Positions 2,646 to 60,930 of a stretch of DNA of 64,000 bases are shown piece after piece. The position numbers were made by a program, and so were the translations under genes. The notes below the pieces were generated by a model. The model searched no databases and was not told the origin of the DNA. It worked only from the letters and a program-made list of their open reading frames with translations. The stretch covers positions 16,566,267 through 16,630,266 of the forward strand of contig OY540809.1 in the NCBI GenBank assembly GCA_961205875.1, given 5' to 3'. Each line of letters opens with the position of its first letter. The first letter of the stretch is position 1. The DNA is from Sialis fuliginosa. Its lineage: Eukaryota > Arthropoda > Insecta > Megaloptera > Sialidae.

Positions 2646-2783
2646 AGTTTCATCATTTTGTTGTCTCTACTTGAGTAGGTGATTTTGAAAATTTTTGGCG
2701 TGCTGAAACCGAATCCGTTGCCTGAATTGCTTCATCACGTCAGGTTTTTAAAATAACTTAACTAAAACTTCCAAAATAACTAT

Positions 2784-3120
2784 TTTTTCAATGTTTAAGA
2801 ATTTATTATCAAGAAAGTAATTTTTTTTCTAAAGTTTTCGTTCACGATAAAAAATAGTACTATATCTTTTGTCATTAAAATGAACTTTAACTTTTTACTG
2901 TACGATTTTTTTTGTCGAGATATGCTAGTTTAAAAATATGATATTTTTATTAATAAGTGACGTAACAATATCTTTAAACTAGTATATTTGTTCAATGAAA
3001 AAAATCATACAGTAAAAATTAAAATTTCATTTTAAAGAGGAAAGATAGTACTATTTCCTATCGTAAACGAAAACTTTAGAAAAAAATTATCTACTTGATA
3101 ATAAATTCTTAAACATTGGC
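2784..3120. repeat. Palindromic (fold-back) repeat
   Basis: The left arm starts with 'caatgtttaagaatttatt' and the right arm ends with its reverse complement 'aataaattcttaaacattg'. Inside, the words around AAAACTTTAG, ATAGTACTAT and ATACTAGTTTAAA pair again, so the stretch could fold into one imperfect hairpin of about 160 bp per arm. Confidence 0.7.
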
Positions 3121-3179
3121 AAAATGTTCATTTTTAGCACTTTTAAATAATCAAGCAAAAGAATTTTAAAAATATATTA

Positions 3180-6869: not shown

Positions 6870-7480
6870 ATTCTTCGACATAATCTCTATCTAGAGGAAC
6901 GCACTTGTTCCAACGGTCTTCTAACATTTCGATACCGGTCTTATAGTGGTTCACGTCAAATCTCTCAAAATAGGCATTTGTTTCCAACTCGATCTCTTTA
7001 TTAGAGTCCGGGAAAAAATTTCAGTTCTGAAGTGATCAAATCAGATCTTGATAGATATGCATTTTGAGACATCATATTTTTTCACTGGTTTTTGATCCGT
7101 GGAGACCTGCAAAGATTTCTAAAGATCGTTGAAGATCGTGATAGAGATTAAAACGTTGAAAGTTCATGAATTTTCAACGTTACAACGATCTTCAGAGATC
7201 TTTGTAAATCGTTGTAGATCTTTATAGATCATTGTAGATCTTTGTAGATCGTTATAGATCTTTGCAGGTCTCCACAGATCAAAAACCAGTGAAAAAATAT
7301 GATGTCTCAAAATGCAGATCTATCACGATCTGATTTAATCACTTCAGATTTGAATTTTTTTCCCGGAAGTAAAATCTTGTGCCAGAGAGCCACATTTTCA
7401 ATTTTAGAAGAAGGTATTAGTCGCTGGGGTTCAGGTCAGGAAAGTACAAAGTTGTTTACGTACCATAGTAAAAAAAAAAG
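6870..7480 (-). pseudogene. Mariner transposase C-terminal fragment split by a MITE
   Basis: On the minus strand, 7368 to about 7450 reads a mariner-type stretch with the DLNPSD motif, which carries part of the catalytic triad, followed in other frames by KMWLSGTRF. After the intervening MITE (7007-7367) the frame resumes toward 6870 with ELETNAYFERF, YKTGIEMLEDRWNKCV and a stop after YVEE, the usual mariner C-terminus. Frameshifts and the insertion make it dead. The N-terminal two thirds are missing. Confidence 0.75.
7007..7367. mobile_element. Palindromic MITE with internal GATC minisatellite
   Basis: The arms begin TCCGGGAAAAAA and end TTTTTTTCCCGGA and pair over about 105 bp, including AAGTGATCAAATCAGATC and TTTTTCACTGGTTTTTGATC. 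The loop (about 7110-7275) is made of short degenerate repeats of the type GATCTTTGTAGATCGTT. It interrupts the mariner fragment above and therefore inserted after it. Confidence 0.8.
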
Positions 7481-9660: not shown

Positions 9661-10078
9661 TTCTCTGTTATGAACCATTTGAAATATATTTTAAAAAGTC
9701 TTTTTTTTAATGAATAGAACATAAATTATAGATAATAATATTAGCTACAATTTTTAACTTGGACATTTTTCTCTAATTCGCACTAAGTAATTCAAAAATC
9801 GACCTAAGTAAACATCCATATCTGGTTGAATGGTCGTTTTCAAAAATAGGAGGTTTTCTTCCCAGAGACAAATTAATCTTAAATATAAAATTTCACCCTT
9901 CTACAATTTGTCGTATTTGAGTTACAGCGTCTATACAGACAGACACACAGACATCATGGCGAAAATAATCAGAATAGAATCAGGGAAGGTCAAAATCAAA
10001 GTGCATAACTTCATCAAAATCCGAATTTCAAATGATATTTAAATAATAATTACAACATTAAAAAAATCCTTTATTAAT

Positions 10079-10167
10079 ATAATTATTACAACAAAAAATT
10101 TATAAATAAGTACCAACTCTTGCTTTAAGACGATTGAAAATAAAATGCACATTTATAATTTAATTTC
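10079..10167 (-). repeat. Left arm of 89-bp inverted repeat around the H15 gene
   Basis: This segment is the reverse complement of 11,664-11,752, which lies just after the stop codon of the H15/protamine-like gene. I count one mismatch within the first 87 bp. Similarity stops abruptly on both sides. The left arm is therefore an antisense copy of the gene's 3' untranslated region placed about 790 bp upstream of its start codon. Confidence 0.9.
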
Positions 10168-10956
10168 TAAAATATTTCTTGTACTGTTATAAGAAATATA
10201 AATGAAATATTACAAAAAAATTCATTATCTATCAAATAAGTCCTGTTCAGTTTTGCTCTAGCTCACATCGTTTTCGCTGCATCGATGATTTAAACATAAG
10301 CGGCGGTCAAGTTTTTTTGTTTTTATTTTTTTTGTGTATTTCCCGGGGGCCCACATCTTTGCAAATTTAATATTTTATTAAGGAGATCATTAGCCATCGA
10401 TCGGCGCTAAAACTATTCAGCCGAATATTTATTTCATTTGAATGTCTAATTTGATTGGACTACAAGTCTTATCAAAATTAGTGAGATAATACTCGCAACA
10501 TTCACTTTTTAGACGATAAAAGTTACAAAATTTCGAATATTTCCAAAACCCCTATTCCGATTAACACCAAAATCACTAGGTCTGGAGTACTCACTGAGAT
10601 AAACATTCTCCCCAAAAATAATTCAGAGCGGTACATTGTTACAGTAATTATCGTGAACGAAAGAAAAAACACACGCACAGCCGCCATTCAGAAATTAACT
10701 TTTCTTTACGTTTTGAAGTTAGTACAATCAAAATCTGTCATTATCTCGGACACAATTTTTCGACGGCATTACAATACTTCCATTTCCTTCGGAACATGGA
10801 AGTAATATGTAATTTAAAAATATATCAACAGGCTTGTGGTTGCTATCAAGTTATTTATAAAAAAAATTGAACACAATCGTTTTCACAAAAATGTGTTTTA
10901 AATTTTTGTAAGTCATTAAGATGTTTCTAAATCCATTGTGTGTATAAAAAAGAAAA

Positions 10957-11649
10957 ATGTCAAATAAAAGTGGAAAACCTTCACCTCAATTATTGTCGAC
11001 AGTGATTCGAACGTTAGAAAATCTACATGAGGTTAATGGGTCACATGTTCGTGGAATCACTTCATGGATCCGCGATAATACGGATTTAAAGCCTGGCACG
11101 ACCCTTACTACACAAATCAAGAGGGCACTAAGACATGGCGAAATAAACGGGATTATCGAAAAGAACGCTAACCGGTATCGTTTAAAAACTGCTTCTATAC
11201 TTCCACCCAATTCTAATGAACAAAAAAACATAACACCTGAAAACAAAGATTTAATAAAAACTACAAATCCTAAAAATCGGGCTGATGATGATGAACCCGA
11301 AGATCGCAGAAGACGTGGTCGGCGCCGTAGCAGAAGCCGCGGCAGAAGGCGTAGAAGCCGCGGAAGAAGGCGTAGAAGGAGAGGGCGTAGAGGACGCCGT
11401 GGTCGTCGTAACGATGATTCTACTACAGAGGAAGATTGTGATGATAGTAGAAAAAATAGTGAATTGCAGCTTAACGTTCCTAACGATAAACCTTCCGTCA
11501 GAAATAGATCCCCATTTACAGATGATATCGATCAAGATACCGAACATTTCGACCCGTCTAAAGAACCTATGTGCACTTGTCACCGTAATAACCCAGGTTT
11601 CAGTAGCATGTCATCATCGCAAGGGAATCCAGGCCCAAGTTATATATGA
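10957..11649 (+). CDS. H15-domain, arginine-rich protamine-like protein
   Basis: An intronless 230-residue frame with three parts. Residues about 7-77 look like a linker-histone H15 winged helix (PQLLSTVIRTLENL... VRGITSWI... QIKRALRHGEINGII... NRYRLKT). Residues 117-151 are an extreme basic tract with 26 Arg in 35 residues, mixed only with Gly and Ser (RRRSRSRGRRRR type). The tail is acidic and Ser-rich with a CTC pair near residue 208. Linker histone plus Arg tract is the design of protamine-like sperm chromatin proteins, so DNA packaging in spermatids is the likely role; this is inference. The first ATG of the frame is used. It is flanked by an almost identical 89-bp inverted repeat (10,079 and 11,664), which is unusual. 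Lack of introns would fit a retrogene. An ordinary variant H1 is the main alternative. Confidence 0.8.
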   Translation: MSNKSGKPSPQLLSTVIRTLENLHEVNGSHVRGITSWIRDNTDLKPGTTLTTQIKRALRHGEINGIIEKNANRYRLKTASILPPNSNEQKNITPENKDLIKTTNPKNRADDDEPEDRRRRGRRRSRSRGRRRRSRGRRRRRRGRRGRRGRRNDDSTTEEDCDDSRKNSELQLNVPNDKPSVRNRSPFTDDIDQDTEHFDPSKEPMCTCHRNNPGFSSMSSSQGNPGPSYI

Positions 11650-11663
11650 CAAGAATCCTTTAT

Positions 11664-11752
11664 GAAATTAAATTATAAATGTGCATTTTATTTTCAATCG
11701 TCTTAAAGCAAGAGTTGGTACTTATTTATACATTTTTTGTTGTAATAATTAT
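11664..11752 (+). repeat. Right arm of 89-bp inverted repeat (3' flank of H15 gene)
   Basis: It begins 14 bp after the TGA stop and probably forms part of the 3' untranslated region; an ATTAAA lies at its start. It pairs with 10,079-10,167. If one transcript included both arms it would fold into a long perfect stem with a loop of about 1.5 kb containing the whole coding region. Confidence 0.9.
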
Positions 11753-11961
11753 TGTTATATTTATTATTTATTTACCATTTGTTTTCAAAAATGTCAAATT
11801 AAAGAGTGCCTACGTTGAATTATTTTATTTTATTTAGTGTGTAGAAGTGGGGTTCCACCTCTATCATACATGACTTTCATGTTCTTTAATATCTTTTTTA
11901 ATAATTTTTGATATTATGAAAAATTTCAATGGGATTTGTTAGAAATAAAACTCACCTAAAT

Positions 11962-12088
11962 AAATGTTATCGGTTTCCAATATCAACCAATAGTTACATT
12001 GGATAAAAATTGACAGGCCCATTGGGTCCATACAACTCTAGTCTAAATTACTATTGGTTGATACCGGAAACCGATAACACTTATTAAT
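11962..12088. repeat. Short palindromic element
   Basis: The ends ATGTTATCGGTTTCC and GGAAACCGATAACAC, with CAACCAATAGT and ACTATTGGTTG inside, form inverted arms of about 30 bp around a 65-bp centre. Probably a very small MITE; no coding sequence. Confidence 0.6.
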
Positions 12089-13512: not shown

Positions 13513-16500
13513 TCAACACAAACAATTAGGATCTATTTGCGCTACTTGGTACAACAAAGCGCAAATAACCTTAGTGCCCTCGACGTAGTTCCTCATGGAG
13601 ATGTTCTCGCGCTCGGTGCCTGAGTTGGCCGAACAGTTGACCATTGGCAACACGAGTGTCTTGACGTCTACCACCCGCTGCAGAAGCAGCACCGTCGGCA
13701 AGTCGCCGTCGTCCCTGATCATACTAGGCTCATCCTTGTACACCTATACATCATCGGAATTATTTCAAAAAAGGCATAATAAACTTCTTTTTCTGCCTTT
13801 TAATAATTTAAATAATAATAAGCAATAATGCTATTAAGTTTTTCTACATATTAGCCATAAAATTAATCATTAAAAATGTTATTTCAATAGAATATTATTT
13901 TTTAAGTTTATCGAATATATCAAAATAGTTCCCTTTCTTGAATATAAAAGCAGTAAAATCATTTTTCAATATAAAAAAGCAGTATCGTTTAAACTATACT
14001 GCTTTTATCCACTGAAAAATATATGCGTATGTACAATATTCACAATCATTCCAAGTTTTTATAATTTCGAAAAGACAGTTTTCAAAAATTGTCTACTTCA
14101 AATAAATAATAAAGTAAATTGTATTTTTTTTCACTTTATAAATATTATATTAAGTATCATATATATTTTTTTTTAATTCGTTTTATCTCTGGCAAAAAAC
14201 TATTTAAATAATTAACCACATCTTACTGCTTTTAAATTTCCAGAAATAAAAGACAGTAAGTCACTCAATTTAGTCATTTTGATGAATTGTAAACTAAAAT
14301 TACACTCAAATGACTTAATGAAATCATGTAACTTACCATTGGTCGCTAAATAAATTTTATAAAAAAAATATTAATTCAGTTTTAAAAAAAACTTCGAGTT
14401 CAGTTTTATTTGTTTTTATTTTTTACACCTTACTGCTCTTACCTAAGCATGGCAGTATAGGTACTTTATTTATCTAACCTGAAGTAAAGCGCGTCTAGCT
14501 GCCTCGTAATGCACATCCTTATAGTCCTGCACCCACGGCCTGGAGCTCGCGACCATCTCCACTCTGACGTTGTTTTTGATATCGCGCTCCTTGCACAGAT
14601 GCTTGAAGTATTTGATAACGCGCGGCGCCACGGTCTCGGGTAACTGTTTCGGAACAATCTTGACTGCAAACTCTCGCTGGACGATGTTCGCGTTCTTTAT
14701 ATCCGCCGTTTCATCGTCACAATTGCACGCCTTTATCTCGAACAACTCCATCGTGGGCTCGCGCCAGAACCGCAGAAGCAGTTTTAATTTAGGCCAGTTT
14801 TCCATGTAAGGCGGCAGGCTTAATCTAAACGGTTATTATTAAGTGTTAAATATGAAATTATAATTATAAATGAAATTTCTATGAAAAATCACCGTGCTTA
14901 ATCAGGATGCTAACGACCATTCCCTGTCAATTTTATTATAAAAATCTATGAAATTGATATTTGTTTCAGAATTTTTACTAAACAGTACGGTAAAATCTGC
15001 AGGAAACAATGGTTATGCGGTTCCATATTAGTAGCGTCGATTTATCTGAAAAACGGCTGTTTCGTGAAATTTTTTTGACTAAATCGCTTGATTTTGGGTT
15101 CAAGAATAGGTGTGTAAGTTTTCCGGATTCTCAGTGCTCCGGAACAGGGTCAAAAATGCCTTTGTTTATAACAAATCAAGGTTTTTTGACGATAGTTCGG
15201 CTAATATTTTGAATATTTTTTTTTTTTAATATAAGATGATGCGCTACGAAAATACAAATAAAATGACACTAGGTAAAGGTTAAAAGGTCATTCCGTTCAC
15301 CTGTAAAAAAATAAAAACCGCGGAAAACACGATATTTTTAAAGTTAAGATAAAAAAAATAAATAAAACTTTTAATTTTTTTAAAATATCTTCAAAAGATA
15401 GCTTTTAACGGTATAAACTGATATGCAACATCTCATCTCATTGTTTTTGTTTAAACGGCCACAATAAATAAATTACGAAAATTTTTGAAGGTCAAATTCA
15501 TTGGGTGCTGTAGGGCCAAAAATATATTTTTTTTTAATGAAGGTTTTTAGAGAGTACTATCAAAATTTTAAAAAGTTACGAAGAGTTCTTTGTGTAGTAT
15601 TTTCTATTTTAAAGACATTTTTCTGTGTTATCGTGATTTCGAACTATTATATTTCAATTTATATTCAAAAGTTTTTAGATGGTATTGAAAAAAGTAAAAA
15701 TTTGGTGTTAAATTTATTACAATGTCAATGCACTTATTATTTATTTAATGTGTACTCAATTTTATGTTAACAGCACCGTAAAAATTACTTGGTCGGTAAT
15801 GTACTTTTATTAAGTAGCACACTAATTTTTTTTGTGACGGCAAAAATAATTTTTATTAAAATGATTAATTAATTTTTTTTCTTCCATCCATTAAAAAATG
15901 TGGCTACAACACAGTTGCTGTAGAGCACAGCAATTTTTCGTTAAAAATATCCATAATAATTCATGGGTTTTTTTTCCATGTACATAAGTATGTTACTTAC
16001 GTAACAGTGTTAGTATCAAACTCGACACTAGATAGCAGCTCTTCCTCTTCGGGGGTGACCTGCTCGACGTCCTCGTAGAACTCGTCGATGTTAATGCGGC
16101 CCTGGTCGTCGACCACGTCCTCGGTCAGGGCTACCAGGTCGCTGTGCGCCGAGCTCGCCGATATCCCGCGCTTGCTGACAGTCGCGCGGAACACGCACAC
16201 ACCCGCCGCACCGTACACCAGGCTCGGGATCGTGTCGTGTATCCACTCGCCGTCACACACGACCATCAGATCCACGTCTTTCAGGAATCCGGACCTACAT
16301 GAATAACAATTTTGTTTTCCTCAAGATTCATAAAAAAAAAAAAAATGTTTACCTATGTGGTTTTAAAAATTCCTCCAAACCCAGACTGCCAATTCTATTC
16401 GTCGACTCCAAAATGAATTTAATATTAACGGGCAACTCGAGATCTAGCTCCTGCAACCCTTGTATTGCGTGAAACCAAGTCAAGAGAGGGCCCTTGTTAG

Positions 16501-18082
16501 CTGCGGTGCCTCGACCGTACAAACTATTATTTTCTTCGTACAATTCAAACGATTTTGTATCTGGTTCAGAAATATCCGATACATCTAAATATGAATACAG
16601 ACATATCTGCAAAAAAATGTAAAAGAAACAAGTACTGAGTGACTGACTCATCAACACCCAGCCCAAACCACTGGACATATAAACATGAAATTTTATAATT
16701 GGCTTCCTTAAATGACGCAAGCCACCACTGAGAAGGGGTTTTTAGGGTTCCGAAGAAACCATATTAATCTCACTTGTCGTCCGTCCGTCCGTCCGTCCTT
16801 TTCAGTCAAAGCAAACATCTCGTAAACTATATAAGCTAGAAACTTGAAATTTTTACTGAACATGTAAAATGATGCCTTCTAGTGAAGACATAAAAAAATT
16901 TTTTTTAAATAATTTTTTAGAAGGGGCGCGAAGGGGCTAAAGCAAGACAAAAAAAATATTTTTATACCAAGGCATGTGAATGTGACACGTCAAAATGTAT
17001 AATCAAACCAGTGGAATTTGATCGTTTTTCTTATTTTTTCTAGATCAAAAATGGTGCCTGCAGAGGGATTTAAAGCAAATCTAAAAAAATTGTATACCAA
17101 AACGAGTGGGGTATTAAAATGTAGATCTCAATCAGTAGAATTTGACCTTATTTTTATTTTATTTTTTTGTAACTCAAAAATGGTGCAGCAAGGGGTTAAA
17201 AACAATATTTTATTTTGCCCCCCCTCCCACCTCTAGCTCGGTAACTACTGACACAAAAAATCTAAAAAAAATTTGGAAATAAGGCTTTGGTGAAACTACC
17301 AACCACAAATACTAAAGTTAACAATATCATTTTAAATTTTGGAATAATAGGGAAGGGTGTCAGAATATTTTATTTTTATTTTCATATCTTAGCATGTGGG
17401 GTGTTAAAACGTAGATCTCAATTAGTAGAATATGACCCTATTTTTTTCTAACTCAAAAATGCACTTGTGGCTCTAAACAGTCCACGTAGTACGTACTTCG
17501 AAACCCTTATGGCATACACTATACACCCTTGTATGTATTGACCAAATTATTTGAAATTTAACCTCTAAGTAGGGGAAAATGGTGTTATTTTATTGCGTTT
17601 ATTTGCATAAGTAAATTATTAAAAAATGTGTACCGTATATTTGTTTTTATCTGTACCCAAAGTGCCGAGTATCACCGGTGGGACGTCGACCAGATTCCCT
17701 TCTTCGTTTTTGCACCGTGGAATATTACAGTATTGAAATTTTACACCGAGGTCTCTCAACCATCTACCTACTATCTTTCCTATCAATAACACATCATTTT
17801 TATATTTCGGGTGCGAAGATATTGATTTAACTGATACCATCTCGCTTAGATCTTCTACAAATTTCTTTCTAAAGTCGTATATAATATTATTTATGTATTA
17901 ACTTAAATAGTTTTATCAATAGATTATATATATACAAACTTATTTCTGTCGATCCAAAACATGAGCTGTTTAAGTTCTGCAGATATTGACACTTTATTAT
18001 CTGATTGAATGAATGATCCATAATCTGAAGATGTCGTTATCGTCTCTGTACGTTTTGTTCTGTACGAGAAAGGGTGGCTCAT
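13513..18082 (-). CDS. M20 metallopeptidase-like pseudoenzyme (CNDP2 paralogue)
   Basis: Six exons on the minus strand: 18082-17940, 17868-17634, 16606-16353, 16294-16001, 14824-14479 and 13743-13513. All junctions are GT-AG and keep frame, giving 500 residues (about 475 is usual for cytosolic non-specific dipeptidase). The family backbone is clear: VSVKSISSHP, VPPVILGTLG, LYGRG, NKGP, PVNIKF, RPWVQD and RNYVEGTK. Yet key sites differ. The GHLDV metal-binding His is Tyr132 (YSYLDV), the bridging Asp of the GRGxxDDKG motif is Ala162 (AANKGP), the EE catalytic pair is Asn196-Arg197, and the C-terminal GAHS ligand His is Glu468. Asp225 (VVCDGEW) is kept. A working dipeptidase is thus unlikely. 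An unbroken long frame suggests a selected non-catalytic role, perhaps dimerisation with an active paralogue; that is inference. Introns 2 and 5 contain transposon copies. Confidence 0.85.
13835..14460. mobile_element. Partial copy of the 3680-4838 DNA element in intron 5
   Basis: Long stretches match 4040-4838 (for example TTCACAATCATTCCAAG and AAACCACATCTTACTGC-type words), and it ends with CTAAGCATGGCAGTATAGG, the shared terminal repeat. The left end is missing. Its insertion accounts for most of the intron between exons 5 and 6 of the dipeptidase-like gene. Confidence 0.75.
14825..16000. other. Intron 4 of the dipeptidase-like gene
   Basis: A 1.18-kb AT-rich intron. It contains open frames of 67-89 codons on the plus strand that are low-complexity and resemble nothing; no exon-like or repeat structure was recognised. 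Confidence 0.6.
16731..17515. mobile_element. Repeat element in intron 2, AGGGTTCCGAAG ends
   Basis: The left end TTAGGGTTCCGAAG and the right end, inverted, AAGGGTTTCGAAG look like terminal inverted repeats. Inside are a GTCC microsatellite (about 16,778-16,797), the words CTCGTAAACTATATAAGCTAG and two related blocks ending in AACTCAAAAATG. This resembles a dispersed family common in Lepidoptera. Non-coding. Confidence 0.6.
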
Positions 18083-18672: not shown

Positions 18673-20735
18673 TAGCCCAGTCAAGGAAGCAGTGAAAAGC
18701 TAGAAAAAGGGAAATTTACGGGGCAAGCAATTTTATGATTGATTCTTATAGATTTTGAACCGGAAAATTCGAAAAAAATAACCCGGACAAGCGAAAAATG
18801 GTGCAACACCCTTAAAAATGGGGTTTAAGGGTGAAAACCCCATTTCCAACCGTTTTTTCAATTTATCACAAAATCTAAAGCGACGATGGTATATTTTTAT
18901 CGTTGATATATGTTCAAGACAATCAGACGAATCGATTGTGACCACATATACTAAATTTGACCAAAAATTACCTCTTCCAGAGGGCTTAAAAGACAGAAAA
19001 ATGCAACATTTCGGGAAAATAGTTTAAAAATTAATAACTTTTGTTAAAATCATCCAAATGACTCGTAATTAGCGTCAAATTGTTCCTGAAGTTACAAAGA
19101 ATAATGACCAACCATAATTTAAAAAAATATTAATCGTTAAACTAATAAAAATCGCTAATGTTTAAGGGTAAGTAACGTAATTTTTTGAAAAACTACATTT
19201 TTACTAAAATTTAAATAAAAACACCAGGGTTAAATATTTTTTAGTGGAACGAATTGATTCTTATAGATTTTGAACCGGAGAATTCGAAAAAAATAACCCG
19301 GACTAGCGAAAAGTGGTGCAACACCCTTAAAATGGGGTTTAAAGGTGAAAACCCCATTTCCAACCGTTTTTACAAATTATCACAAAATCTAAAGCAACGA
19401 TGGTATATTTTTACGATTGATATATGTTCAGGACACTCAGACGAATCGATTGTGACCACATATACTAAATTTGGCCAAAAATTACGTATTTCAAAGGGCT
19501 TAAAAGACGTAAAAACGCATCTTTTCGGTGAAAATAGTTTAAAAATTAATAACTTTTGTTAAAATCATCCAAATGTCTCGTAACTAGGCTCAAATTGTTT
19601 CTGAAATTCCAAAGAATAATGACCAACCATAATTTAAAAAAATAATACTAGTTTAACTAATAAAAATCACTAATGTTTAAGGGTAAGTGCATTTTTACGT
19701 CTTTTAAGCCCTTTGGAAGAGGTAATTTTTGACCAAATTTAGTATATTGGTCACAATCAATTCGTCTAAGTATCCTGAACATATATCAATCATAAAAATA
19801 TACCATCGTCGCTTCAGATTTTGTGATAAATTGAAAAAACGGTTGGAAATGGGGTTTTCACCCTTAAACCCCATTTTTAAGGGTGTTGCACCACTTTTTG
19901 CTAGTCCGGGTTATTTTTTTCGAATTCTCCGGTTCAAAATCTATAAAAATCAATCATAAAATTGCTTGCCCTCTTAATTTCCTGTCAAAATGCTTCCTTT
20001 ACTGGACTGAATCTATTATTTTGTTTGGAAAAATGTAATTTTTTTAAATTGTATACAACAAAAATTCAGTGTATTTATAAGCGCACTTGCACCCGTTCTA
20101 ATAATTGAATATTATTTTGGGGGGTCTCATTTTGTTTGTATGTACAAGTAGAAGGTATCTACCTTGGTTTCACTAAAAAATATTCAACCCTGATGTTTTT
20201 ATTTAAATTTTAGTAAAAAGATAGTTTTTCAAAAATTTACGTTACTTACCCTTAAACATTAGCGATTTTTATTGGTTAAACTATTAATATTTTTTTAAAT
20301 TATGGTTCATTATTATTCTTTGGAACTTCAGCAACAATTTGAGTTTAGCTACGAGTCATTTGGATGATTTTAACAAAAGTTATTAATTTTTAAACTATTT
20401 TTCCCGAAAAGATGCATTTTTAAGTCTTTTAAGCCCTTTGGAAGAGGTAATTTTTGGCCAAATTTAGTATATGTGGTCACAATCGATTCGTCTGAGTGTT
20501 CTGAACATATATCAACCATAAAAATATACCATCATCGCTTTAGATTTTGTGATAAATTGAAAAAATTGTTGGAAATGGGGTTTTCACCTTTAAACCCCAT
20601 TTTTAAGGGTGTTGCACCACTTTTTGCTAGTCCGGGTTATTTTTTTCGAATTCTCCGGTTCAAAATCTACAAGAATCAATCATAAAATTGCTTGCCCTCT
20701 TAATTTCCTGTTAAAATGCTTCCTTTACTGGACTA
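18673..20735. mobile_element. Compound fold-back element with four related arms
   Basis: The outer ends match as inverted repeats: TAGCCCAGTCAAGGAAGC at the left and, reversed, TAGTCCAGTAAAGGAAGC at the right. Inside are two direct arms (about 18,733-19,250 and 19,253-19,690) and two inverted arms (about 19,690-19,960 and 20,165-20,690), all starting GATTCTTATAGATTTTGAACC. A second internal copy of the right end lies at 19,960-20,008. The arms give similar look-alike frames (MGFKGENPISN and the inverse) that are not genes. No transposase is present. Confidence 0.8.
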
Positions 20736-33614: not shown

Positions 33615-35292
33615 TTTCGGGCTTCGAACCGGAACTAAACCGAAACCCGGAAAAACCATTATTTTTTGCCGAAACGAAAACCGGAACCGAACCGAAAAAA
33701 AAAATTTTTTTTTGTTCGGTACATGTTAACGGGACGGACACATTTTTGATACTTTTTTAAACCGTTGTATTTTCGATGAAAATGGGATCTGAAAAAATCG
33801 TGAATAAGCAATGTCAACGTAAAATTTAATGAACTTTTTGAATCCGACTTCAAATTTTCGAAAAAATGAACAGGTCAAAAGTTATGGATAATTTTATCCA
33901 AAAAAACGTGGTTTTGAAAAAAAAATTTTTTTTTCTTTTCGATTTTTCACATGGAAATCGTTCAAGATCTGACGTCTGAGGTGTAAATAAAGCGTCCATG
34001 GACCCTAAACTCAAAGTTATAACAATTAAAATTGGTGAAATAAAATTTTAAGCACTCAAAATGTCGGCTGGAACATGAAAAAATATAAAAAACTTTCCAG
34101 AATTTTTAACTCGAAAACGATGGGCTTTAGGAAAAAATTTTACTTATGAAAAAGTTCTTAGAATTAATCAAAGAATACGCTAGAATTTTTTCAGATTTTT
34201 TGGAATTTTTTTTTCAATTTTTGAAAATTGCAAATTTTGAAAAATTAAAAAAAAATTCAAAAAAAACTGAAAAAATTCTAGCGTATTCTTTGATTAATTC
34301 TAAGAACTTTTTCATCAGTAAATTTTTTTCCTAAAGCCCATCGTTTTCGAGTTAAAAATTCCGGAAGGTTTTTTAATTTTGTTTTTATTTTTTATATTTT
34401 TTCATGTTCCAGCCGCCATTTTGTGTGCTTAAATTACATATATTCATAGATGAAGACAGAGTAAATAACAATTTATTTTCTATCGAAATCTTGTTTGCAA
34501 TTTAATTTTTCAAAATTTGCAATTTTCAAAAATTGAAAAAAAAATTCAAAAAAATCTGAAAAAATTCTAACGTATTCTTTGATCAATTCTAAAAACTTTT
34601 TCATAAGTAAAATTTTTTCCTAAAGCCCATCGTTTTTGAGTTAAAAATTCTGGAAGGTTTTTTATATTTTTTCATGTTCCAGCCGACATTTTGAGTGCTT
34701 AAAATTTTATTTCACCAATTTGAATTGTTATAACTTTGAGTTTAGGGTCCATGGACGCTTTATTTACACCTCAGACGTCAGATCTTGAACGATTTCCATG
34801 TGAAAAATCGAAAAGAAAAATTTTTTTTTTTTTCAAAACCACTTTTTTTGGATAAAATCATCCATAACTTTTGACCTGTTCATTTTTTCGAAAATTTGAC
34901 GTCGGATTCAAAAAGTTCATTAAATTTTACGTTGAGATTGCTTATTCGCGATTTTTTCAGATCCCATTTTCATCGAAAATACAACGGTTTAAAAAAGTAT
35001 CAAAAATGTGTCCGTCCCGGACTTAATGGGTTAAAACATGCGCGTTAACATGATCTTACTCTCCACTTCAGTTGTGCAGGCTATCATACAAGTACCATTA
35101 ATGTTCTAAATTATCGTAGAAAATAAATTTTAATACAAATACATTTTTTTTAATTAATCACTCAGAGCTGAACCGAAAACCGGAAAAACCGTTATTATTT
35201 TCGGAACGATAACCGGAACCAAACCGATATATATTTTTTTACTCTAACTGAAACGAAAACCGAAGCGAAAAAAATAACGGTTCTATGCCCTG
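33615..35292. mobile_element. hAT-like MITE carrying a 1.3-kb palindrome
   Basis: The ends are a degenerate form of the 37,489-38,321 element: TTTCGGGCTTCGAACCGGAA at the left, AACGGTTCTATGCCCTG at the right. The 8-bp flanks CTTTGCAA (33,607-33,614) and CTTTGCAT (35,293-35,300) differ at one base, as expected for an old hAT target duplication. The inner part, 33,722-35,037, is a palindrome that is absent from the related copy. Confidence 0.75.
33722..35037. repeat. Large imperfect palindrome
   Basis: The outer arms, from GGACGGACACATTTTTGATAC to its inverse near 35,020, pair over several hundred bases, with blocks such as CCTAAACTCAAAGTTATAAC. Inner copies around CTTTAGGAAAAAATTTTAC appear three times, so the centre is a nest of smaller palindromes (for example 34,080-34,400). 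Transcription through it would yield a long hairpin RNA. Non-coding. Confidence 0.8.
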
Positions 35293-38863: not shown

Positions 38864-40698
38864 CCAAAATTAGGATCAGTTATAAAAAAAAATACTATTA
38901 CAAACTAAGTTAAAGAAAAAAAAAATTTATAAATATCCTGTAGAGCTTAAAATTTTTGTATCCACAGTTTCTTTTTTATCAGCAAAAGCATATAAATATT
39001 TCAGAGTCATACTTCCTAATCTCCCAAATACTGCAACTATTAGAAGGTGACCTAGTGAATTCAAAATTGAAGCAGGTGTATGTAACATGTCACTAGAAAT
39101 ATTAGAAGGTAAAATAACTGAAGCCAAAAAATTAGGTAAACAGATATCGTGCAATGATAGATGATATGGCAATGAGAAAGCATGTACGATGGAATGGAAA
39201 AAAATATTGTGGTTTTGTTAGCCACGTTAATAGTGCAATTAATAAACTGCCAATAAAAGAACCAAAGTCTAGGTTATTAACAACAGTTATTATGGTTGTT
39301 TGCATCAATGACAGTTGGAAAATCCCAGTTGCTCATTACTTCATTGACGGTTTAAATGGTAAAAATAGAGCTGATCTCGTAGTGCAATGCCTTAAAGATT
39401 TACATTCGACTGGAATTATTATTACATCTTTAACATTTGATGGTGGGGCATTAAACATGACAATGGCTAAACATCTTGGTGTAGATATTCGAGACGTTGA
39501 GGATTTAAAAAAAAATTTCCTCATCCCATTACGAAAGAACCTGTTTATATAATAATTGATGCTTGTCATGCCATCAAGTTAATACGAAGTGCCTTGGCTG
39601 ATAAAGGAATTTTATTTGATGGTAATGGAAATATCGAATGGAAATTTTTGAAATTATTAGTTAAATATCAGTATGGTTTAAATGCCGCAACAAAGATACA
39701 AAAACGTCACATATATTTCGCAGCAGAAAAAATGAAAGTCAATAATTAGAAACTCAAGTTTTAAGTACAAGTGTCAGTCATACATTAAACTTTTTTCGAA
39801 CAAAAATTAATATATTAGAATTTTCTGGATCCTTTGGTACTGAGAAATTTTGTATGATGATGATCGATATGTTTGACTTGTTAAATTCAAGACAACATTT
39901 TATAAAAAATTCAAAGAAAGTCCTCATAGATCAACATAATATTATGGAAATGTATTCTAAAATTACAGAATATGAACAATATATTAAATCTCTTTGTGAT
40001 AATAAGAACCAACCTATTATAACTGGTAATCAAAAATTGGGTTTCATCGGTCTTTTAATTTCAATACGTAGTTCATTAAGCATTTTTTAAAAGTATTCAT
40101 CATTGGATGAAGTATCTTTAAAATATCTATTAACTTATAGGTTATCGCAGGATCATCTAGAACTATTTTTTTCTAGCATTAGATCACGCGGAGGCCGTAA
40201 CAATAATCCTACTGCTGAACAGTTTGAGTCAGCGTTTAAATGGTTGCTAGTTTATGCCCAAGTTGGAGGTTCAGAATATGCAAACTGTATTGCACAAGAT
40301 AACACTTGTTTATTACAAAAGAAAGAAGAGCTGAAGAAAAAAAAAGTTTCCCAAATCAGAAACACAAATTTAAATAAGTCTCGATAATCAACTTTTAATT
40401 CTTTCATATGAACATGAATATAATATTCCAAATATTTATGAAGGCATTAATTATGATTAGGTATATTAATGAAATAATTAGTTATATGTCAGGATTTGTA
40501 GCAAATAAAATACTAAAAAGAAACAAGTGTTTTAAATGTAACGAAATGCTTATTTCGGAGATATCATCATCCTCCTTACTGAACTTAAAAAATCGAGGGA
40601 AATTTTAAAAAACCATCAATTGATCTGATAGAAATTTGCAAAATTGGTGAATGGATATTCCAGGAAAATAACATTTTTGCTATCAAAAATATTAAGTA
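38864..40698 (+). pseudogene. THAP9/P-type transposase core, degenerate
   Basis: Starting at an acceptor (TTTTCAG at 38,857-38,863), fragments in shifting frames follow the THAP9/P transposase order: YPVELKIFVSTVSF and KAYKYF, then MIDDMAMRKHVRWNGKKY, LTTVIMVVCINDSWKIPVAH, YFIDGLNGKNRADLV, SLTFDGGALNMTMAKHLG, DACHAIKLIRSAL, then LKYLLTYRLSQDHLELFFSS with IRSRGGRNNNPTAEQF, and finally MSGFVANKILKR with the C-x2-C pair CFKC. RNase H-like acidic positions are present (DDMAM, FDGG). Stops near 38,909, 39,748 and 40,088 and frameshifts near 38,930, 39,050, 39,150, 39,520 and 40,400 show that no active transposase can be made. The protein order matches the autonomous family end to end. Confidence 0.85.
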
Positions 40699-51003: not shown

Positions 51004-53656
51004 ATGGTTAAACTGTGTTTTTTTGCAACGTTAACATTAATTTTAATAAATGGCGTAAAACTAGAGGAACAACCATTTCAGTTAATCGCATGGAGCGAAC
51101 TGCAATATATTTCCAAATACACAGAATATGGAAGTAGTGGAATTATACAATTCATTATACCTGAAGATACAGAGTTTGTTTCTATCATACTACAAGCAAC
51201 TACAAAGAAATTGTCTTATTTAAGTAAGATACCTCTAGATTAGTTACTGATTTTAATTGTATCTATTAATCATATAAACTTAATTGCAGCATTTGACTGT
51301 ACGATATTTGATGTTACTGCACATTTTAAAGAAGGATCTTTACCTGTTATAAGTCCTGAAAGTGCACCATTTCCGCCTACATTTGTGAATATCTCTCGAC
51401 CTTCTGTTATGAGTATAGATTTTAAAGCGAACCAAACAAAGAATTATATTAATATAACAAACCCTTACCCTGGAAATTGGTTTGGAATTGCATTTCAAAC
51501 ATGGACTGATCCAAAAAATGATAAAATTCAACAGCAAGGAATTGCCCCAGTTTGTGAATGTTCACTTACAACTAAAGTAATCGTATTAAAACAAAATATT
51601 TCTATTATTGACTATGAAGAACCAACCGAAATCATAGTATCTAGTAATAAGATATTTTCTAAAAGATATAAGTTTTATGTAGACTGGAATGTGCAGAAAA
51701 TCAATTTTAATATCAAAGTTGAATTGAATTGCAAATATTGTGATCATATACTAATTACAATAAACGTAAGATCATTGCCTAATGAAGAAAACAATATAAG
51801 AGAAATAAAATTCTCGAATCAAGAAAATGAAGAACAAAATTTTAACTTAACACCTGAAGAAAATACCTGGCATTACATAAGTATTGACTATGTGCCTTCT
51901 AACAAATCAACTGAAGAAACTGAAGTAAAAACTAAAATATTTTTAACTGTTACGAAAACTGTTTACAATAATACTGAATATAAAAACTTCATTAAAAGAT
52001 TACAAAATATTGAAAACACTGTTACAATAGTCAGCAATATAACTGTTAATAAAAATAAAACATATGAAATTGAATTTTCGCAAAATAAAACATTGAACAA
52101 AATTACAAATTATGATCAAATAAAAAAGAAAATATTATATTTTAAATCTGGTTCTGATATCAACTGTACACAGTATGATTTAATTAAATTAGCAACTGGA
52201 AATTCTTTTTCTTTTCATTTCATAATGGAGCCAGATATGAATCAACTGATACCGAAAATGATAAACTTAACTAGTCAATTAACCTTACTTAGATTTGATT
52301 TAAATGGTTTAGAAGATATCGGAGGTACACTCTACATGGGGTTTTCACTGAATCCAAAAAGATATTTAAACAAAACATCTTTGAAAAACGTTTCAAATTA
52401 TACACTTTTAATATGTGTTCGAAGACACGCACCTGAGATACCAACATTACCACATTCGTGTCTGTTTAATAATGAGCGGAACAATGCTTCTATTATCCTT
52501 AATAGCACAAGCCCTCCGACAACATATGAAAATGTTCATCTGCCTTTTCCTGAAATGGGTACTTGGTTTGTAAGTATCGGCATATTTCCTTTAGAAAATT
52601 CAACATACGAGAAGAATTGTGATCACACTTGTTATAACTTCTATGAGTTTTGTTTGATGAATTGTCTGAAAGGTGACGTTAATTGTCAAGATGAATGTGT
52701 TACATCAATGAACAATATAACAGAATGTACAAGTTGCAACACAGATACTATTCCTGATAACGTCGTATCAATTTATAACGATTCAACAGTCGAAGAATGG
52801 AATGCAAGTTTAATTTTTTCATTATCGATGGCGCCATGTGTCGATGAGTCATGTGGCAAATTTGGACAGTGTAACATGTACATAGGCTCAGGAGTACTAT
52901 TATCAGCTTGTCGATGTCGTAATCGGTACACAGGTTTGTACACAATATGGTGTTTTCTATATTTTTATGTTTTTTATATGTGTATTTTATTTTTTAGGAT
53001 GGGATTGCAGTTATGATGCATACGTTCACAGTCCCGGTATTGTTCTACTATCTACATTGCTATTAACGCTTAGCAATCTTGTATTCTTTGTTAGTGTTTA
53101 TTTTGCATATAAACGTGGTTATTGGACAGAAGGTGTTGTCTACGCTTTTACAGGCTTTTTTTCAACATTTTATCATGCATGCGATTCAGGTGAAGACTTA
53201 TATACATTTTGTTTGTTTCAACGCAGGGTTCTTGAGTTTTGTGACTTTTACTCTGGACTTTTGTCTATTTGGGTAACGTTAGTAGCAATGGCAAACCTAA
53301 ACGACAGATTCACTTCAATATTACATATGGTTGGTGCAATATTATTAGCTTTTGGCACAGAATATAATAAACAGGGTGTGTTAGTATTTTTGTTACCGAG
53401 TATAGCGGGCGTTGTTATGATTTTGTCTAGTTGGGGTTCGAGATGTTATAAAACTAAAGAATGCTACCCAGCTAAGAAATATTTATATATTCATTTGCCG
53501 TTAGGTGCAATATTAGTAGTAATAGGACTTGTGTGTTTCGCATTCTTAGAAACAAATAATAATTATAAGTACGTTCATAGTGTATGGCACATTATCATGG
53601 CTGTGTCGATATTGAGTCTACTGCCCAATAGACAATTGTATTTTTCTAAAAGCTAG
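51004..53656 (+). CDS. PGAP6: PGAP6/TMEM8-family GPI-specific phospholipase
   Basis: Three exons, 51004-51223, 51290-52933 and 52998-53656, in frame, giving 840 residues. Family knowledge: PGAP6 (TMEM8A) is a cell-surface GPI-specific phospholipase A2 that sheds GPI-anchored proteins; TMEM8B is the close paralogue and cannot be excluded. Seen: a signal peptide (MVKLCFFATLTLILINGVKL), a long Asn-rich luminal region with many N-glycosylation sequons, a Cys-rich stretch (CDHTCYNFYEFCLMNCLKG), an EGF-like domain (CVDESCGKFGQC to GWDC, about 588-625) and a seven-helix CREST domain. The CREST hydrolase motif is FFSTFYHACD (Ser677, His681, Asp684) with a later DFYSG Asp and a HSVWH pair near the C-terminus, so the catalytic residues look intact. 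The product ends on a short cytosolic tail. Confidence 0.93.
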
Positions 53657-55080: not shown

Positions 55081-56510
55081 ATAGATCACTTTTACTATAT
55101 CAAGGGTCAAAACTGGTCAGTAAAATCAGTAAAAGTCAGTTTTTTGTAACCCAGTCAGTTAAAGTCAGTTTTTTGGTAAAATGGTCAGTTTTGTCAGTTT
55201 TTTGGGTTTGGCACTCAAAGTTTTCACATCGGAGCCCTATTTATCGTGAAAAAAGTCACTATTTGACTTCAAAACGACACAATTACCGTGAAAAATATAT
55301 TCAAATTATAAATAATGTTCTATTTTGTTTACTTCTTTGTATTGTTTATTACCAACTTTTAGAAGATATTTTATGACATAATTGTAACGTATGTATACGT
55401 GAACATATAAACAACATGATCTCACTCTAGCACTAGCTATGCCAAGTTCGGTAAGAAAAATTAACAAAAATTAACTGTTATGTTTTTAACTTTTGTTATG
55501 AACATAATACCTAAAAATATGGTAAGGGTTGGCTATGAGTATGGTGGAGGCCAATATACAGGGTGAGTCATTTTAATCAACGCAGTCAAATATCTCGAAA
55601 AGTAAGCGAAATTGAGAAAAACGTTTCAAACAAAAGTTGCATGGTTTCAAGGGGGACAAACAGTGGTGACCTTGCGGTTGACCTTCAAATCATTTTTAAG
55701 GTCAAATCAAGGTCAAATTTGATTTTTTAAATGGAAACCTATATTTTTTATTGCTTATTCGTATTCTACGTGAAGAAATGAGTATCTTTAGTAGGAAATT
55801 TTTTTTTTAAATTGCTTTCTTCTCTTGGTGGAGGGCGCTGTAAGATTTATCAACGAACTCAAATATCTGAAAAAAAGTTGCACCTAATAGCTCAAACTAC
55901 TTTTAGCATTACCCAGAAACAACGGCGTGGACGTAGTAGTTGTGTTTCTTTTGGGGTGCTTTTTTAAAGTAAGAGGCAAGAGGACTCACATTAAAAAAGC
56001 ATCCCAAAGGAAACATACAACTACTACGTTCACCCCGTTGTTTCTGGGTAATGCTAAAAGTAGTTTGAGCTATTAGGTGCAACTTTTTTTCAGATATTTG
56101 AGTTCGTTGATAAATCTTACAGCGCCCTCCACCAAGAGAAGAAAGCATTTTTAAGAAAAAATTTTCCTACTAAAGATACTCATTTTTTCACGTAGAATAC
56201 GAATATGCAATAAAAAATATAGGTTTCCATTTAAAAAATCAAAGTTGACCTTGAAAATGGTTTGAAGGTCAACCACAAGGTCACAATTGTTTGGCCCCCT
56301 TGAAACCAAGCAACTTTTGTTTGAAACGTTTTTCTCAATTTCGCTTACTTTTCAAGATATTTGACTGCGTTGATTAAAATGACTCACCCTGTATATTTTT
56401 TTAATACATAACACCTAAATTTTTTAAATTGGTTCAGATAGTCAGTAAAAGTTAGTATTTTTAGAATCTGTGTCAGTAAAATCAGTAGTTTTCAACACTG
56501 AACTTGTTTG
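55080..56510. mobile_element. Repeat with GGTCAGTAAAA ends, split by a palindromic element
   Basis: On the left, GTCAAAACTGGTCAGTAAAATC is followed by several GTCAGTTTTTTG repeats; on the right, AGTCAGTAAAAG, GTCAGTAAAATCAG and AGTTTTCAACACTG occur. The two flanks look like parts of one older repeat interrupted by 55,559-56,391. Boundaries uncertain. Confidence 0.4.
55559..56391. mobile_element. Full-length palindromic element, 833 bp
   Basis: Ends CAGGGTGAGTCATTTTAATC and its exact inverse; TATA lies on both sides. The arms pair along almost their whole length of about 400 bp (AAATATCTCGAAAAGTAAGCG, CGCCCTCCACC, GCAACTTTTGTTTGAAACG-type blocks) around a loop of about 24 nt near 55,975. No protein is encoded. 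If transcribed it would be a long hairpin RNA. Confidence 0.9.
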
Positions 56511-60080: not shown

Positions 60081-60930
60081 TCAGGTATGCAAAAAAGTTC
60101 TGAGCTTTTTATTGCAAAATTTAATATATATAAAAAAAAGATATTAATCAGCAAAATAATTTCCGTTTACATCGATAACCTTTTGCCACCTTTCTGGTAA
60201 CTTGTGGATTACTTGATGATAAAAGCTCACCAGCTTCGAGGCGATGAAATCATCAATGCATTCTCGTATCTCGTCAAATGTCCTAAAATTTTTATCAGCC
60301 AAGTGATGCTGCAGCGACTGGACCAGGTGGTAGTCGGAAGGCACCATGTCTGGATTATATGCCGCATGCAGGAGAAGTTCCCAGCCTAACGCAAAGATAT
60401 GGTTCTGAGTCAATTTCACAATATGTGGACAGAAATTGTCATGAAGTAGTACAACATTTTGACGTCCTTGTCTAGTAAATGGCTTTTTTCTTCCAACGCA
60501 TCGCTCAAATTCATCAATTGTTGTTGATAACGGTCTGTTGTGATTGTTTGATCTGGCTGTCTCGTAATACAGCACACCTTTCCAATCCTAATAGATACAG
60601 AGAAAAATCTTCTTGGCATGGATATGGGTCAACACATAGCATGACTTACAACGTTTTTTCCATATGCAGCACAAATTATTTTGGTAGCTACAGTAGCTTT
60701 TTTTAAATTGAAACACAAAGTGGGCGGAAAAACGAATATGCTCTTTTGTTATTGCCATTTTGTACACTACAAATTTTTGAGATTATGTGCATCAAATGCC
60801 AAACAATGTGGTATTTTGAAAGGCCAATGTCAACGCTATCAAACTCTAAAAGGGTAGGAAGATGAATCAATTTTAAATTGTTGTTTCAATTGTATGAAAT
60901 TTAAAGCTCAGAACTTTTTTGCATACCTAA
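60081..60930 (-). mobile_element. Internally deleted mariner element
   Basis: The terminal inverted repeats TCAGGTATGCAAAAAAGTTC and, reversed, TTAGGTATGCAAAAAAGTTC, with TA on both sides (60,079-60,080; 60,931-60,932), enclose 850 bp; intact mariners are about 1.3 kb. On the minus strand the start (MAITKEHIRF near 60,757) and the C-terminal part survive, the middle is deleted and frames are shifted. Confidence 0.9.
60144..60760 (-). pseudogene. Mariner transposase remnant
   Basis: The longest open piece (60,575-60,144, 143 codons) includes HDNFCPH, from the mariner HDNARPH box, and YNPDMVPSDYHL, from YSPDLAPSDYHL with its catalytic Asp, then LADKNFRTFDEIRECIDDFI and LPERWQKVIDVNGNYF. Upstream pieces with PRRFFSVSIRIGKVCCITRQ lie in another frame. 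Missing middle and frameshifts make it inactive. Confidence 0.85.

Follow-up and report, generated by a model that had tools for sequence, protein, structure and literature searches.

The hairpin RNA (hpRNA) loci Nmy and Tmy of Drosophila simulans are inverted repeats that match a chromatin-type gene; they are autosomal and silence X-linked targets of the Dox family through small interfering RNAs (siRNAs) made by Dcr-2, as set out in the available portions of PMC10292708 and PMC10317233. The former adds that Drosophila hairpin loci are generally thought to derive from duplications of their own targets, and the latter describes one hairpin whose inverted repeat is homologous to its target over about 200 bp. 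Inverted duplications are also described, in the part of PMC5080602 on which we draw, at both breakpoints of staggered-break inversions; for inversion O8, fragments of 380 and 128 bp are given. Finally, the accessible text of PMC9917458 covers the amplified sperm nuclear basic protein genes of Drosophila, which are young, lie in multi-copy clusters on one chromosome, encode basic proteins and also show signs of sequence exchange (concerted evolution is given for tHMG). Amplified genes of this type have been tied there to genetic conflict in the male germ line. Here we describe an inverted repeat around a gene for an arginine-rich protein, W, in the megalopteran insect Sialis fuliginosa. The window is the 64,000-nucleotide stretch C1:16566267-16630266, where C1 stands for contig OY540809.1, and the genome searched comprised 392 Mb in 20 contigs, from a single species and a single assembly. 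Counts from genome searches are lower bounds, and a missing match is no proof of rarity. We put the probability at roughly 85% that the left arm of the repeat is a piece of 3′ flank from W's own gene family, displaced and inverted, and derived from segmental (inverted) duplication.

Results

The initial annotation reported an 89-bp inverted pair around the gene, and this was borne out: plus-strand positions 10079-10167 are the reverse complement of 11664-11752 at 88 of 89 bases, with 1 mismatch. The match extends in register to 104 bp with 6 mismatches (10079-10182 with 11649-11752), and its inner edge is the final base of W's TGA stop codon (11647-11649). The inner 15 bp are identical at 10 of 15 positions (P ~0.004 versus random pairs of places). 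Among the matches to the left arm listed in the 64-kb window, the next best scores 32.8 bits versus 161 for the right arm. The arm pair is real and not a product of chance. Neither the spacer compared with the reverse complement of W (91 of 100 shuffles reach the observed score) nor the outer flanks of the arms compared with each other (51 and 55 of 100 reach the observed scores) gave a match above shuffles, and the minus-strand frames in the spacer are all short. The features on which the argument turns are as follows.

10957..11649, plus strand: W, one of four family copies, a single open reading frame (ORF) of 230 codons.
11664..11752, plus strand: right arm, W's 3′ flank, homologous to the 3′ flanks of the paralogues G2 and G3, and to that of G1 with internal deletions.
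10030..10182, minus strand: full left arm, the family 3′ flank reversed over about 150 bp, starting just past the would-be stop.
10079..10167, minus strand: left-arm core, 89 bp, 88/89 identical to the right arm; a possible conversion tract.

The genome search with the W protein found four open copies, each of them on C1, and one weak partial match on C9. W itself lies at C1:16577223 (plus strand). G2, at 16845445 (plus), is 92% identical; G3, at 16847831 (plus), 95%; and G1, at C1:16841716-16842321 (minus), 92%, covering query residues 1-200. The copies other than W match 226, 230 and 200 of the 230 query positions without stops. They form a cluster about 270 kb from W, and no further family copy was found at E <= 0.01 in 89.9 kb around it.

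C1:16841680-16848550 (L005 681-7551): cluster of three open paralogues, G1 (minus), G2 (plus) and G3 (plus).
10812..11962, plus strand: shared part of the duplication unit, common to W and the paralogues with gaps, comprising 5′ leader, coding sequence and 3′ flank.

G1 forms inverted repeats with G2 (756 positions, 94%) and with G3 (1107 positions, 90.5%). A small foldback lies at the downstream end of the shared unit (11959-12085), and similar sequence occurs at C1:16858962-16859205.

A genome search with the arm returned at least four places: the left arm, the right arm, C1:16846134 (93%) and C1:16848540 (88%). The two places outside W are the 3′ flanks of two paralogues, and every place returned adjoins a family member. 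Aligned with the paralogue 3′ flanks, the left arm matches them from just past the stop codon to about position 10030, a length of some 150 bp. Positions 10042-10180 match the G2 flank at 90.6% over 139 positions, 10030-10171 match the G3 flank at 86.8% over 151 positions, and 10042-10084 and 10147-10182 match the G1 flank. The arms had been described as ending abruptly at both borders. The right border, at 11752, is abrupt as stated, because W's own 3′ flank is without 31 bp at the end of the right arm that G2 has; on the left, the similarity to the family runs on to about 10030. The 31-bp stretch is also present, with small differences, in G1, G3 and the left arm. Since G1, G2, G3 and the left arm all retain it, the best reading of the sharp right border is that W lost sequence there, not that an element ends. 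We considered a 10-bp direct repeat, AATCCTTTAT (10065 and 11654; P 0.0065), as a sign of insertion or template switching and rejected it: judged by the paralogues, its left member is plain family 3′ flank, which W lost on the right.

These observations bear directly on a second proposal of the initial annotation, namely that a non-autonomous transposon captured the gene and that the arms are its terminal inverted repeats. The window is certainly rich in inverted repeats, with 18 inverted versus 8 direct self-hits spanning at most 3 kb (E <= 1e-6), which would suit such an element. However, the genome search placed all of the at least four arm copies at members of the gene family and none dispersed with the same ends. 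A plain miniature inverted-repeat transposable element (MITE), for which arm copies away from the gene were to be sought, is contradicted by the same result. Furthermore, the left arm continues past the end of the right arm along the paralogues, and the natural ends of the two arms differ. The best flanking direct repeat, of 7 bp, is displaced from the ends, and a repeat of that length or longer occurs in 18 of 300 random pairs; no target-site duplication was found at the arms beyond chance in this comparison. On the strength of the arm places, the differing ends and the missing target-site duplication, we rejected transposon termini or a MITE as extremely improbable; the left arm is not a transposon end.

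The inverted structure at W is not exceptional within the window. At E <= 1e-6 the window gave 47 self-hits over all distances (29 inverted and 18 direct), among which the arm pair ranks 24th by score. Separately, we noted six foldback or palindromic repeats (55553-56397, 33730-35019, 18710-20708, 34047-34433, 2773-3134 and 7007-7367), which reach 861 aligned positions at 91% and 520 at 97%; each of them outscores the arm pair.

Two further features separate the left arm from the shared unit.

10217..10462, no strand assigned: high-copy interspersed repeat of about 246 bp, between the left arm and W's upstream block.
10463..10805, plus strand: upstream block U, common to the upstream regions of W and G2.

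The 246-bp repeat gave at least 41 matches, counting the window's own and one that is 53 bp long (40 were scored of 418 candidates). Five copies were examined: they start at positions equivalent to 10210-10218, and four of the five end at 10460-10462 and one at 10473. The 89.9 kb read around the cluster contains further pieces of U, both downstream of G1 and G3 and at two other places (C1:16868779 and 16890566). U may be either a repeat or a boundary of the unit.

We then compared the arms with the paralogue flanks as a guide to age. In the 89-bp core, the left arm differs from the right arm at 1 of 89 positions, from G3 at 4 of 89 and from G2 at 6 of 89; the right arm differs from G2 at 4 and from G3 at 5 of 82 compared columns. 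At sites where G2 and G3 agree, the left arm is changed at 1 of 81 core sites versus 7 of 56 outside the core (Fisher P = 0.008), and the sole core change is also present in the right arm. Because the left-arm changes cluster outside the core, this pattern suggests an old inverted fragment whose core was homogenized by gene conversion, by or with the right arm. Selection on the core instead of conversion is possible, but would be odd for a stretch that is not known to be a 3′ untranslated region (UTR).

The same comparison is relevant to a one-step origin, in which the left arm would be an inverted insertion made from a template, or a stretch duplicated when a small staggered-break inversion flipped the gene, and a full second copy was never present. 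It fits this course that the inner edge of homology falls right at the stop codon with no coding remnant, that the two arms are nearest each other in the core, and that staggered-break inversions are described as leaving inverted duplications at both breakpoints (PMC5080602, in the part available); the likeness to those cases lies in the inverted duplications, whereas the inversion at W is putative. However, with 7 of 56 sites changed outside the core, the left arm is not as young as the core suggests, and head-to-head copies already exist in the family, so that an old inverted copy needs no new mechanism. We examined a microinversion with staggered breaks using joined flanks and retained it solely as a rival. 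A one-step origin is possible but on balance unlikely; it is a special case of the duplication that we favor, and the odds of the two overlap.

Several points weigh against an old duplicated fragment as the source of the left arm. The conversion argument is built on eight changes. That the left arm is closest to the right arm in the core also fits a one-step copy of W's flank whose edges have decayed. Alignments around the AT-rich deletion are not unique. As no coding sequence was found beside the left arm, one would have to postulate that a full copy was lost. Finally, the evidence comes from one species and one assembly.

In 10810-11760 there are 16 sites at which the four copies divide two against two, and W sides with G3 at 12, with G1 at 3 and with G2 at 1. 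The upstream block gives the pairs W/G2 and G1/G3 instead. Members of the family thus seem to exchange sequence, as W goes with G2 in this block and for the most part with G3 in the coding part. G1 and G3 (L005 681-1322 and 6832-7551) read beyond W's stop into a common alternative C-terminal frame, which runs into sequence that is 3′ UTR in W and G2. Relative to G2, the frame is shifted by a 79-bp deletion in G1 and by a 1-bp deletion in G3. A single frame change common to G1 and G3 was therefore rejected: the same frame was reached by different deletions. Ratios of nonsynonymous to synonymous divergence (dN/dS) for the six pairs of copies are 0.34-0.67; over the first 80 codons, where each pair shows very few changes, five pairs lie at 0-0.4 and G2/G3 at 1.24. 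These values would fit coding copies under some constraint, although the test is not strong.

The W protein has an N-terminal part that is predicted to be helical and weakly resembles linker-histone/winged-helix domains, followed by an Arg-rich block and an acidic C-terminal part. Residues 113-153 (41 residues) include 26 Arg, with acidic stretches on either side, and the 230 residues contain 51 K+R versus 31 D+E. The length of the Arg-rich block differs among the four copies. Within the part of W that encodes it, a 21-bp tandem repeat was noted (11332-11378, 2.2 copies, 96% match). A single-sequence structure model gave, at low confidence, four N-terminal helices (10-27, 30-40, 50-60 and 62-78), no strands and little structure in the remainder, with a mean predicted local distance difference test (pLDDT) score of 53.3.

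W had been labeled H15-containing and protamine-like, and this label proved weak. W had no match in Pfam at the default threshold. At a relaxed threshold, the linker histone family PF00538 scored 18.8 bits over the whole protein (E 0.0019) and 21.7 bits for the domain alone (E 0.00024), below the curated cut-off of 22.4. The linker-histone profile gave 57 matches in the genome at E <= 0.01, scoring 81-107 bits, and the W family is absent from them; in the control for this search, 0 of 14 control genomes gave a signal. W therefore shares with linker histone H1 a weak N-terminal similarity, but it falls short of the scores of the genome's own matches, and its basic part consists of an Arg-rich block of 41 residues between acidic stretches. 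In the PDB set, the N-terminal part matched a stretch of the KAT6B histone acetyltransferase at E 0.004, above the default threshold. Viral contigs scanned with the N-terminal domain pattern gave 23 matches with no relative among them, and a scan of the viral contigs with a 24-mer from the arm gave 0 matches. Among the papers listed in literature searches on this type of protein, none could be tied to the W family. Because of their composition and weak similarity, W-family proteins may bind DNA or chromatin; an identity as protamine or linker histone is unproven. Insect protamines can derive from longer precursors with less charged parts, according to the accessible part of PMC12216123, and the acidic flanks of W therefore do not exclude a role in sperm.

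Finally, we considered the proposal that the gene is silenced by small RNAs, which would be cut from a transcript that spans the two arms or arises in the left one. The arms are able to pair as a double strand, as the initial annotation supposed: in the predicted fold of a 10060-11770 transcript, 87 of 89 arm bases would pair with their exact partners, and the arms have 48 perfect 21-mers in common. They are highly complementary and match a target gene (W's own 3′ flank in cis, and those of G2 and G3), both being features of hpRNA loci. However, the duplication already explains the left arm. A plus-strand transcript from outside would meet an AATAAA at 10139, in the left arm, before it spanned both arms, although this objection is weak, as the motif is common (181 on the plus strand of the window). 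The left arm was said to be antisense to the 3′ UTR; that is right for plus-strand transcription and wrong for the other strand, since a minus-strand transcript from W's upstream side would carry the left arm in sense. Silencing by W's own arms is very improbable in our estimate.

The 0.75-1.1-kb inverted gene copies of the cluster would be a better place to look for a hairpin than the arms at W. G1 and G2 have 470 perfect 21-mers in common and G1 and G3 have 339, of which 282 and 229, respectively, are also in W, so that longer stems would be possible. The sense transcripts of head-to-head copies are not mutually complementary, however, and antisense transcription would be needed. In a wider form of the hairpin idea, G1 against G2 and G3, with the arms as a small relic, would be transcribed into hairpins that control a multi-copy Arg-rich chromatin gene. 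Such a Dox/Nmy-like system would have originated independently in a second animal lineage, and one chromosome would carry both driver-like and silencer-like copies. That we regard as very improbable.

Elsewhere in the window, a dipeptidase-like gene lies tail to tail with W, with exons at 13516-17897 on the minus strand; it has a Peptidase_M20 match at 16349-16678, and its other exons were recognized by eye from open frames. Of the transposase-like fragments at 39154-39552 and 60147-60587, one is a TNP-like RNase H domain and the other, recognized by eye only, a mariner-like minus-strand piece. At 51409-53656 there are two open frames, the second with a DUF3522 domain and TMEM8-like by eye. 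Rfam and tRNA scans of the window gave 0 matches.

Discussion

The course of events that we favor would begin with four open copies of the gene, which lie on a single chromosome and in both orientations. Next to one of them, W, about 150 bp of family 3′ flank stand in inverted orientation, detached from any coding part; most likely they came from a minus-strand copy that lost its body, or from a copying or inversion event that duplicated the flank alone. The 246-bp repeat, now found between the left arm and the upstream block, would have been inserted later. W's flank would then have lost about 31 bp, which gave rise to the visible right border, and the 89 bp common to both arms would have been homogenized by gene conversion. 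The arms are most likely without function, save for the right arm as 3′ UTR; a dedicated regulatory role for the left arm is putative. The inverted repeat is real and its explanation ordinary, and the gene family is mildly interesting.

Set against Nmy and Tmy, the arms at W are short, flank the gene itself and are known here from sequence alone; among the papers listed in a literature search on such hairpins, the closest concern Drosophila. The closest known situation would be that of a small, young family of basic-protein genes, by analogy with the amplified sperm nuclear basic protein genes of Drosophila. The W family differs from the genes of that survey, in its available part (PMC9917458), in having four copies rather than more than five and a different domain, and in being read from its DNA only.

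Two things follow for this family. When one copy loses some sequence, a duplicated flank that is in itself ordinary can come to resemble a precisely bounded inverted element. And the inverted repeat led to a recently duplicated family of four copies, with an Arg-rich, possibly chromatin-binding product, whose members seemingly exchange sequence.
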